Positions 30,196-33,638 of a stretch of DNA of 64,000 nucleotides are shown in pieces. The notes beneath the pieces are model-generated. The model made no database searches. It had not been told where the DNA came from and saw only the letters and a program-made list of their open reading frames with translations. Each line of letters starts with the position of its first letter. Position 1 is the first letter of the stretch. Origin of the DNA: an uncultured Pelagibacteraceae bacterium (GTDB taxonomy: Bacteria; Pseudomonadota; Alphaproteobacteria; Pelagibacterales; Pelagibacteraceae); assembly GCA_902578775.1 (NCBI GenBank), contig CACHEF010000004.1, positions 1-64,000 of the forward strand, read 5' to 3'. A program made the translations under genes and the position numbers.

Positions 30196-30888
30196 CTAAT
30201 TCTTAGAAAGAAATTTAATCAAACTTTTCAAAGCTTTTTTTTTAGCAGATGATCTGGAAACCATCATACAGGCTTCGGATTTTAATATTTCTCCATCTTT
30301 CAATATTCTTAAGTTATTAGCTTTTAATGTTTCTCCAGTTGAAGTTATATCTGTAATAATCTCACTAGACTCTGTGAAAGGATAAGCTTCTGTTGCACCC
30401 AAGCTACTTACTAACTTAAATTGAGTTACTCCTTTAGAGAACAAAAATTCTCTTGTTAAATTTGGATATTTTGTTGCCACTCTTAATCTTTTCTTTTTTT
30501 TATCTTTAAAATCAAATCCTATTTCCTCTAAATCAGCAATCGTTTGTACATCAATCCATTCATCAGGGATGGCAACAACTAATTTTGCTTTACCAAAATT
30601 ATATTTTTTACTGACACTAATTTTATTTTGAATATTAATTTCACTTTCTTTTAATAAATCAATTCCAGAAAATCCCAAATCTAAAGAACCCTCTCCTAAT
30701 CTTTGAATAATTTCTCGTGCATGTAAATAAATTATCTTAATATTCTTTTTACCTTTAATTGATGCAAGTAAATCCCTTTCTCCTCTTTCAGAAAAAAGTC
30801 TTAATTTCTTCTTTTTAAAAATATTTAAAACATCTTTTCTAAGTCTACCTTTGCTGGGAATTCCAACATTTATGATATCGTTAATCAT
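30196..30888 (-). CDS. hisG: ATP phosphoribosyltransferase, short form
   Basis: VGIPSKGRLRKDVL, GFSGIDLLKE, RVATKYPNLTREFL; about 230 aa with hisZ adjacent. Confidence 0.93.
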   Translation of the reverse strand: MINDIINVGIPSKGRLRKDVLNIFKKKKLRLFSERGERDLLASIKGKKNIKIIYLHAREIIQRLGEGSLDLGFSGIDLLKESEINIQNKISVSKKYNFGKAKLVVAIPDEWIDVQTIADLEEIGFDFKDKKKKRLRVATKYPNLTREFLFSKGVTQFKLVSSLGATEAYPFTESSEIITDITSTGETLKANNLRILKDGEILKSEACMMVSRSSAKKKALKSLIKFLSKN

Positions 30889-31931
30889 ATATTTATAGCA
30901 GCCCCAACTGCTGGAACTTCTTTTTTAGATCCAAGATCAGAGATTAAGTGGTCATACCTTCCACCATTAATAACATTTTTATTTTTTAAATTTGATTTGA
31001 TATCAATTCTAAAAACCATTCCTGTATAATACTCAAGTTGTCTTCCAAACGAGGCGGAAAAAATAACATTTAATTTTGAAACTTTATTTTGAGATAACGG
31101 GAAATATCTTTGGTCTACAGCAAGATTAATTTTATATTTCTTAAAAAATTTGTTTAATTCACAAGCTGCTTTATTTATTGGACATTTTATTTTTAAAAAA
31201 TCTTTAATTATTTTTGAAACATTTTTACCTTTATTTGTTCTTCTTGGGTCTTTAATTTTATGATCAAATCTTTTTAAAATTTCTTTTATTGATCTTCCTG
31301 CAACAACTTTAGATTGATTATCTTTCAACATCTTTAAGTAGCGTCTTTTATCAACTTCAACAATAGTTGGATCAACATCAGAGTTGGTTTCCAGTCTTTT
31401 TAAAAGATCATTAAAATAATTTTCTCTCCAAAAGTGTCTTAATAACCTTAATTTCCATCTTTTTGGAATATCTAATTTTGAAATAAGAAGATTAAAAATT
31501 TCAATATTGCCAATTGTTAAAGTACCAGAAGTATATTTTAGATTTTGTAAAGATTTAATAGAGGTATTAATTATTTCTTTGTCATCATTTTTTTCATTTT
31601 TAGAACCAATGATCTCAAATCCGATTTGATTTCTAATAATAGAGTCTTTTTTATTTTGTGATTTTCTATAAGCCTGGCCACTATAGAATATTTTTTCTTT
31701 GCCTTTGAGATTGTCCTCTAAATACCTTAGACACGATACAATCGTTAAATCTGGTCTTAAACATAATTCACTGCCATTTTGATCAATAAATGAAAATATA
31801 AATTTCCTAAAGTTTTCACCTGATCTTTGAACAATGTGATTAGCTTCTATTACTGAAGGTAAATTAATAAACTTAAATCCTTTTGACTTTACTGATTTAA
31901 GGATATTTTCAGATAAGTTTTTTGATTTCAT
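30885..31931 (-). CDS. hisZ: ATP phosphoribosyltransferase regulatory subunit
   Basis: Class II aaRS-like fold (LCLRPDLTIVSCLRYL, FYSGQAYRKS, GGRYDHLI), overlaps hisG start and hisS end. Confidence 0.87.
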   Translation of the reverse strand: MKSKNLSENILKSVKSKGFKFINLPSVIEANHIVQRSGENFRKFIFSFIDQNGSELCLRPDLTIVSCLRYLEDNLKGKEKIFYSGQAYRKSQNKKDSIIRNQIGFEIIGSKNEKNDDKEIINTSIKSLQNLKYTSGTLTIGNIEIFNLLISKLDIPKRWKLRLLRHFWRENYFNDLLKRLETNSDVDPTIVEVDKRRYLKMLKDNQSKVVAGRSIKEILKRFDHKIKDPRRTNKGKNVSKIIKDFLKIKCPINKAACELNKFFKKYKINLAVDQRYFPLSQNKVSKLNVIFSASFGRQLEYYTGMVFRIDIKSNLKNKNVINGGRYDHLISDLGSKKEVPAVGAAINI

Positions 31932-33303
31932 TAACTAAATTTTCTTTTGAAATAGTTTGATTATTTTCACCCTTAACGCCTTTAAGGTTTTTAATTGTAA
32001 CTGTGTTTTCTTCAAATTCATTTTCACCACAAATTATAGCAAGATCAAGTTTACGTTTATTTGCGTAAGTAAGTTGTTTTCCTAAATTTTTTTTTGTATC
32101 CAAAAATATCTCAGCATTGATATTGTTAGCTTTTAATTGCTCTAAAATTTCATAATAATTTTTCAAATATTTTTCATCCATAACACAAACTAGAACCAGC
32201 TTTTGTTCTTTAACTTCTATTTGTTCTAATTGCATTAGTGCAAATAACAAACGATCAACTCCAAATGAAATTCCTGTTCCTGGTATATCTACACCCTTAA
32301 ATCTTGATATGAGTTTTGCATAAGCACCTCCTGAGCAAATACTACCTATATCAATTACTTTATTTTTATTATTTTTTACTTCAAAATTTAAATTTGTCTC
32401 TACGATAAACCCATCATAATAAGCAAGGCCTCTTACAATTGTAAAATTTGTTTGAACTTGGTTTTTATATTTTCCAAATCCAAGTATTTGGAAGACGTCT
32501 TCTATTTCTTTTATCCCCTCTTGAGATAGTGGATTTGTTAAATTATTTTTTAATTTTTTAAGATCTTTTATTTTTAGAAAATCTAAAATTCTTTCCACTT
32601 GAACGTTATTTAAATCTGCACCTTTTGTGATTGCACCCGAGCTATCTTTTCTCTCTTTTTTAAGTAAAGCCTCGACCCCTGATAAACCAAATCCAGGTTT
32701 ATTTAATTTATCAATTGCTCTAATCACTTTTGTTTGTTTTTCAGAAGAAATATTAAGCTCATCAATCAGACCTTGAACAATTTTTCTATTACTAACATTA
32801 ATCGTAAATTGATCTTTTTTAAGACCACATTCTAATAAAGTAGCTGAAATTAAGTTGCAAAGTTCAGCATTTGATTGTGCGGGATTGGTATTGCCAATTA
32901 TATCAAAGTCAGCTTGAAGAAATTCTCTATACCTTCCATTGCCAGGTTTTTCATTTCTAAAAACATTTTGAATAGCATATCTTTTGTAAATTGTTGGAAG
33001 TTCCTGGTTATTCTGAGCTACAAACCTGGCGAGCGGACTAGATAAATCATATCTTAAAGTAATATTTTTATCTCCATCCTGAAATGAAAAAATATCAGAC
33101 ATAGGATTAGCTTCATCTTCTGCTAGAAAAGATCCTATATTTTCACTTATCTCAAAAGATGGGGTTTCTAAAGGTTCGGCCCCAAATTTTATAAAATTTT
33201 TTTCAATCACTTGTAAAAGCTGTTTTTTCAAAACTAGCTTTTTTCCCCAACGATCTTCAAATCCAGATGGTAAGGATGGATTGAGTTTGTTTTCTTTATT
33301 CAT
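31909..33303 (-). CDS. hisS: Histidyl-tRNA synthetase
   Basis: LPSGFEDRWGKKL, TLRYDLSSPLARFVA, FRNEKPGNGRYREFLQADFDIIG, SGGAYAKLI, GISFGVDRLLFAL. ATG at 33303; the upstream extension reads through tRNA-His. Confidence 0.95.
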   Translation of the reverse strand: MNKENKLNPSLPSGFEDRWGKKLVLKKQLLQVIEKNFIKFGAEPLETPSFEISENIGSFLAEDEANPMSDIFSFQDGDKNITLRYDLSSPLARFVAQNNQELPTIYKRYAIQNVFRNEKPGNGRYREFLQADFDIIGNTNPAQSNAELCNLISATLLECGLKKDQFTINVSNRKIVQGLIDELNISSEKQTKVIRAIDKLNKPGFGLSGVEALLKKERKDSSGAITKGADLNNVQVERILDFLKIKDLKKLKNNLTNPLSQEGIKEIEDVFQILGFGKYKNQVQTNFTIVRGLAYYDGFIVETNLNFEVKNNKNKVIDIGSICSGGAYAKLISRFKGVDIPGTGISFGVDRLLFALMQLEQIEVKEQKLVLVCVMDEKYLKNYYEILEQLKANNINAEIFLDTKKNLGKQLTYANKRKLDLAIICGENEFEENTVTIKNLKGVKGENNQTISKENLVNEIKKLI

Positions 33304-33307
33304 TTTT

Positions 33308-33381
33308 TGGTACCTTGGGTAGGTTACGCTCCTACGACTTCGGATCCACAAACCGACGTGATGCTATTTCACCACCAAGGC
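33308..33381 (-). tRNA. tRNA-His (GTG), CCA encoded
   Basis: GCCUUGG UG GUGA AAUAGCA UCAC G UCGGU UUGUGGA UCCGA AGUC GUAGG AGCGUAA CCUAC CCAAGGU A CCA. Cloverleaf stems pair apart from a U31-U39 mismatch and a G1-U72 wobble; anticodon GUG. Confidence 0.88.
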
Positions 33382-33442
33382 ATATCCTCTTTTGTTTTAT
33401 ATTATTTTTAGTGGATTTAAAATTATATTATAAAAGTTAATT

Positions 33443-33458
33443 GCTAGCTTTAGCCAGC
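33443..33458 (-). terminator. Hairpin overlapping the leader ORF stop codon (possible attenuator)
   Basis: Minus-strand GCUGGC-UAAA-GCUAGC followed by AAUUAACUUUU. Confidence 0.5.
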
Positions 33459-33551
33459 ATGGAAATGACTGTGCACACCTCTATTAGTTCCTCGAAGTGT
33501 AGATCTTTGAGTACTTATATTTGATCTTGTTTTTATCGCTTTTATAATCAT
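33450..33551 (-). CDS. 33-codon ORF, putative His leader peptide
   Basis: MIIKAIKTRSNISTQRSTLRGTNRGVHSHFHAG*. Three His codons within five residues, locally GC-richer, ends on a hairpin upstream of tRNA-His/hisS. Below the ORF-track length cutoff. Confidence 0.45.
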   Translation of the reverse strand: MIIKAIKTRSNISTQRSTLRGTNRGVHSHFHAG

Positions 33552-33599
33552 GATGGGTCTTTTAGACAAAAAAATTATTTAATCAACCCTAAAAATAAA

Positions 33600-33638
33600 A
33601 AAGGACGTTTATCTAATTTAATAGATAAAACGCCCTTT
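33600..33638 (-). terminator. Rho-independent terminator of cspA
   Basis: AAAGGgCGTTTTATCTA...TAGATAAACGtCCTTTTTT hairpin with U-tract on the minus strand, 15 nt after the cspA stop. Confidence 0.85.

Follow-up and report, generated by a model that had tools for sequence, protein, structure and literature searches.

The hisL leader of enterobacteria encodes a short peptide rich in His codons, which is followed by a hairpin and lies upstream of hisG-containing genes. SAR11 bacteria are among the most abundant marine bacterial groups and have few transcription factors. In Bacillus, a histidine leader peptide precedes a hisS paralogue and hisZ; the study reporting it names Pelagibacter only for a different motif (Naville and Gautheret 2010, PMC2965389). 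The trpL transcript of Sinorhizobium meliloti (rnTrpL/peTrpL) begins at the ATG and thus carries a leaderless leader peptide (PMC7298713), and the uORFC-8-2 motif lies upstream of cysS in Rhodobacterales (PMC8632094). Leaderless polycysteine uORF attenuators have been described in mycobacteria (Canestrari 2020, as cited in PMC13236596).

The stretch of DNA analysed here (64,000 nucleotides, "the window") is part of a SAR11-type genome, and its HisRS shares 97% identity with the closest named relatives, which are uncultured Pelagibacteraceae. Its minus strand carries hisD, infA, tRNA-Phe, a cspA-like gene that ends in a strong terminator, a short leader ORF, tRNA-His, hisS, hisZ and hisG, in this order (Table 1). 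A sequence-only reading had placed a His-codon ORF between the cspA terminator and tRNA-His and proposed that it controls the genes downstream. The ORF is present as described, and the downstream genes are backed by Rfam (tRNA-His) and NCBIfam (hisS, hisZ and hisG). The leader is located between a predicted promoter and the operon, which runs in the same direction, and the terminator of the cspA-like gene ends immediately ahead of that promoter. Comparison with related genomes indicates that this ORF very probably encodes a His-sensing leader peptide for the tRNA-His-hisS-hisZ-hisG operon. Within the operon, the tRNA-His gene was missed by ARAGORN and detected by Rfam. The hisS start lies 5-7 nt past the tRNA CCA end and has no Shine-Dalgarno (SD) sequence, both in the window (33301-33311) and in relatives, so that tRNA processing would free a nearly leaderless hisS mRNA. 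Some genomes whose HisRS is divergent (L119, L125 and L126) carry a short hairpin between tRNA-His and hisS with SD-like bases in its loop.

Table 1. Features of the leader region and operon in the window.
Feature	Coordinates	Strand	Basis
Intrinsic terminator of the upstream cspA-like gene	33591..33638	-	strong stem, tail TTTTTTATTTTT, T-score 5.4, fold energy -17.3
Predicted -35 element TTGATT of the leader promoter	33581..33586	-	TTG at -35 to -33 from ATG
Predicted -10 element TAAAAG, 7 nt ahead of the leader start codon	33559..33564	-	fixed spacing
Leader ORF, 33 codons, MIIKAIKTRSNISTQRSTLRGTNRGVHSHFHAG*	33450..33551	-	conserved His-rich ORF, 140/141 distinct hisS-upstream regions
Predicted regulatory His codons CAC-AGT-CAT-TTC-CAT	33459..33473	-	His at -7, -5, -3 across the same stem class
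Hairpin UGCUGGC-UAAA-GCUAGCA	33442..33459	-	terminator scan, fold -9.0 kcal/mol, pairing kept in >20 stem variants of relatives
A/U-rich tail behind the hairpin, a weak U-tract	33422..33441	-	T-score 1.4
Conserved AT block AATTTTAAA-N-TAATATAAAA before tRNA-His	33395..33423	-	conservation profile, 102 loci
tRNA-His gene, anticodon GTG	33311..33381	-	Rfam RF00005, 48.3 bits
hisS, histidine--tRNA ligase	31909..33303	-	TIGR00442, 341.5 bits, above cut-off (NCBIfam)
hisZ, ATP phosphoribosyltransferase regulatory subunit	30885..31931	-	NF008953, 396 bits, above cut-off (NCBIfam)
hisG, ATP phosphoribosyltransferase	30196..30888	-	TIGR00070, 181.7 bits, above cut-off (NCBIfam)

The leader ends in the codons GTG CAC AGT CAT TTC CAT GCT GGC TAA, with His codons at 33473-33471 (CAC), 33467-33465 (CAT) and 33461-33459 (CAT). 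In dinucleotide shuffles of the window spacer, at least three His within seven codons of an ATG ORF occurred in 9 of 5000 cases. A DNA search of the family hit 61 of 197 genomes, with some hits being short and due to chance; HisRS searches retrieved orthologues across the genus and order, and extraction of their upstream regions left 141 after duplicate removal. These fall into two families (f1 and f2). In 140 of the 141, an ORF starting with ATG has two or more His in eight codons and ends at or in a hairpin. At least three His in eight codons are found in 105 of these 140, and in the sole exception (L026), read by eye, the hairpin is retained together with a related ORF that has a single His. 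Two, three and four His in seven codons arise in 5.5%, 0.4% and 0.01% of dinucleotide-shuffled regions, against 140, 99 and 53 of the 140 observed, which are related loci and not independent events.

For the coding comparison, loci were grouped into three classes anchored on the position of the stem. Among the 22 distinct sequences of the class with a TAAA loop, codons -7, -5 and -3 are His in 21, 22 and 22, respectively, numbers that are partly selected since the class loci were drawn from the His-cluster call; synonymous exchange is free of this selection. Both CAT and CAC are used at the His positions of this class, codon -6 takes five different residues, and the other two classes show the same tendency. 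Overall, the leaders use 290 CAT and 119 CAC codons. This swapping of CAT and CAC next to changing neighbours fits selection on His codons and not on the base sequence; the His codons are kept in orthologous spacers, as expected of a leader that reads histidine supply.

Outside the His cluster, the peptides have little in common: lengths range from 11 to 38 residues, N-termini are unrelated, and Pfam gave no supported match. Peptides of family f1 include VHSHFHAG, THRHHFHAGCTLAI, THRNCFHSQ and SHSHRMHAKLLLSL; family f2 has the 11-residue MIVFTHHHIHI, with which five more f2 loci, read afterwards, agree. We consider it very improbable that the ORF arose by chance or that its product is a small functional protein, with the hairpin serving only for termination or processing. 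Phe between the His codons, and Arg, do recur across classes, but the variable lengths and N-termini and the Pfam result speak against it, and the conserved part is a His cluster at a near-fixed distance to a hairpin, before hisS.

When 61 genus genomes were scanned for the pattern, 10 of them had one copy each, before hisS, and the reversed pattern gave no match in the same 61. In family f2, the leader directly precedes hisS-hisZ-hisG, without tRNA-His. We found no comparable His-rich uORF in 28 alphaproteobacteria from outside the order, which suggests that the system is limited to Pelagibacterales within this sample; two long ORFs in those genomes were judged incidental. At two loci (L080 and L049), HisRS is 92% identical and the leaders are near-identical, and the tRNA-His genes differ. 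Two others (L021 and L130) have the same leader peptide, with HisRS only 83% and 54% identical to that of the window.

The hairpin begins within the final His codon and holds the leader stop codon in its loop. The sequence-only reading had drawn it over the end of the leader, and both folding and a terminator scan, in which it is among the 2 matches to the region (0.6 expected in shuffles), recover it there. A stem is found at the ORF end in all 140 loci, mostly with 6-8 pairs of which 3-4 are GC, and with a mean energy of -8.0 kcal/mol. Pairing is kept in relatives via compensatory changes, as illustrated by the stems GCTGGC/GCTAGC, GCAAGC/GCTTGC, GGTAGC/GCTATC, GCTAAGC/GCTTAGC, ATAGCC/GGCTAT and ATGGCT/GGCCAT. 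In 55 distinct cases with a four-base loop, 93% of cells are paired, compared to 17-43% when the 3' arm is slid, although these cases were chosen as stems and the paired fraction leans toward pairing accordingly. The frequent G-U pair in GCUGGC/GCUAGC argues for a structure that acts as RNA and not as a DNA palindrome. In one large class, the ORF reads through the entire hairpin.

The tail behind the hairpin is U-enriched but weak, as the sequence-only reading had cautioned: its T-score averages 2.1 across loci and is 1.4 in the window, compared to 5.4 for the cspA terminator and 1.1 (90th percentile 2.4) for downstream control positions. A second stem proposed further upstream, ACACUUC/GAGGUGU, forms in the minimum-energy fold of the window; since the equivalent bases in the nearest relative (L003) are ACUCUUC/GAGGUAC and no longer pair, we regard it as unsupported. 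By eye, the long-peptide class seemed to offer another upstream stem (CTTTAAG/CTTAAAG), which was set aside because its consensus fold was weak. Loci L145-L154 of family f2 have a conserved CCCC(C)-U run after the leader hairpin and, close to the hisS start codon, another hairpin.

Across 120 distinct f1 loci, TTG mostly occupies -35 to -33 relative to the leader ATG, followed by an A/T-rich -10 element at -13 to -8, with no purine-rich SD before the ATG, in line with an earlier remark that no SD is evident in the window. The placement of the -10 element, its fixed spacing and the missing SD together suggest that the transcript probably starts on the AUG or no more than a base or two from it, and that the leader mRNA is leaderless. 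This fixed-spacing promoter and the probable leaderless mRNA are what the comparison adds to the first observation. The AT block between the hairpin and tRNA-His is possibly a second promoter. No TTG -35 accompanies it in the 102 loci profiled; upstream of 20 other tRNA genes in one relative, some regions share a TAGTATAA-like -10 element, but with a -35.

Comparison across loci thus supports selection on the His codons and on the RNA hairpin, a fixed geometry, linkage to the operon and the position of a promoter. The kept His codons and the compensated hairpin strongly support the part of the original proposal that concerns a His-responsive leader; the exact classical form of an attenuator, a U-tract terminator with an antiterminator, fares less well, as the U-tract is weak and we recognised no stem competing with the hairpin that is conserved across the clades examined. 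We consider it reasonably likely that transcription is attenuated at the leader hairpin through direct masking by the ribosome, with termination a plausible outcome. Under this model, transcription would start at or near the leader AUG and ribosomes would load on the leaderless message. When charged tRNA-His is ample, the ribosome would complete the leader and depart, the hairpin at the last His codon would form, and RNA polymerase would most likely stop or pause in the A/U tail, lowering expression of tRNA-His-hisS-hisZ-hisG. When charged tRNA-His is scarce, the ribosome would wait at the second or a later His codon and cover the 5' arm, so that no hairpin forms and polymerase proceeds into tRNA-His, hisS, hisZ and hisG.

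A ribosome reaches about 13-14 nt from its A site. All 128 distinct loci have at least one His codon near enough for a waiting ribosome to overlap the 5' arm. The first His codon lies mostly 13-21 nt ahead of the stem, and in 106 of the 128 it is at least 14 nt away, where a ribosome would leave the stem free. A ribosome stalling there would therefore halt just before the stem, and under severe starvation the hairpin would stay unmasked. The simplest model is direct masking, which accommodates a stall at the first His codon poorly. The same spacing would suit a classical attenuator with an unrecognised antiterminator, as in enterobacterial hisL or trpL, since a ribosome that stalls this early would leave the hairpin free, and individual clades do have short extra stems (such as CAUUCU-CAC-AGAAUG, which surrounds a His codon in the SHSH class). 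We nevertheless hold this alternative to be improbable, given that no hairpin-competing stem recurs across clades and that the second stem of the window is lost in its nearest relative.

A further feature concerns the two ends of the leader region. In the window, part of the tail (33436-33427) is complementary to the leader 5' end (33548-33539), with a duplex energy of -8.1 kcal/mol. Elsewhere, the 5' end, often including the AUG, likewise complements bases behind the hairpin (AUGAUUAAA/UUUAAUCAU, AUGAUUAUAA/UUAUAAUCA), and a 5'-end helix of at least 6 pairs is part of the minimum-energy fold in 102 of 133 loci. Among 19 mutually dissimilar loci, cognate ends pair better than swapped ones (mean -4.4 versus -3.2, p = 0.0005), although this complementarity had been spotted prior to its test. 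It fits a leader that senses histidine through a hairpin that is not a terminator, in which the position of the ribosome would set the later fate of the RNA: a leaderless AUG masked by the sequence behind the hairpin, a leader that is cleaved or decays, or tRNA-His and hisS mRNA that are set free. The weak U-tract and the closeness of the hisS start to the CCA end would also suit this alternative, which we rate as rather unlikely. Against it, the complementarity is almost solely A/U, is missing in many long-peptide loci including L003, and by eye has no counterpart in family f2. For its composition, its failure in the nearest relatives of the window and the order in which it was noticed and tested, we treat the 5'-end pairing as a lead only. 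Direct masking and this pairing could tentatively be joined into a minimal His attenuator that is leaderless, in which the ribosome masks one hairpin and post-hairpin pairing later closes the start codon region. Working without an antiterminator or a standard terminator, such a device might control a tRNA gene along with the cognate synthetase and the enzyme of the first pathway step.

A conserved amino-acid sensor built from no more than the ribosome and some 110 nt of RNA would illustrate how streamlined genomes still regulate biosynthesis. Here, one sensor would govern a tRNA gene, the matching synthetase and the enzyme that starts the pathway, and, judging from the loci compared, the leader is retained while the adjacent tRNA-His and hisS get exchanged.

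Rfam detected only the tRNA in this region, plus a sub-threshold speF match; there was no match to His_leader (RF00514) at the gathering threshold or at E up to 5, and none to the T-box riboswitch at gathering or relaxed thresholds. We found no earlier report of a SAR11 His leader in the literature searched. Like hisL (RF00514), the SAR11 leader combines a short His-rich peptide with a hairpin and hisG-containing genes downstream. It differs in having 2-5 spaced His codons in place of a long run, in being probably leaderless with no recognised antiterminator and a weak U-tract, and in an operon that adds tRNA-His and hisS. The Bacillus leader similarly places hisS- and hisZ-type genes under a His-codon leader, in Firmicutes, and was found through predicted Rho-independent terminators (PMC2965389). 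S. meliloti trpL is likewise alphaproteobacterial and shares the leaderless start, which is predicted for SAR11, but has tryptophan codons, 14 aa and a terminator/antiterminator switch (PMC7298713). The uORFC-8-2 motif also sets a cognate-codon uORF ahead of an aminoacyl-tRNA synthetase gene in Alphaproteobacteria, with two tandem Cys codons, two stems and a clear U-run in contrast to the SAR11 leader (PMC8632094). The mycobacterial uORFs, as far as the citing source describes them, are also leaderless short cognate-codon ORFs that control an operon, and differ in using cysteine and in belonging to Actinobacteria (PMC13236596). By analogy, the logic of the SAR11 leader would be that of an amino-acid leader-peptide attenuator, with the Bacillus His leader, S. 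meliloti trpL and the Rhodobacterales cysS uORF as its nearest described counterparts.
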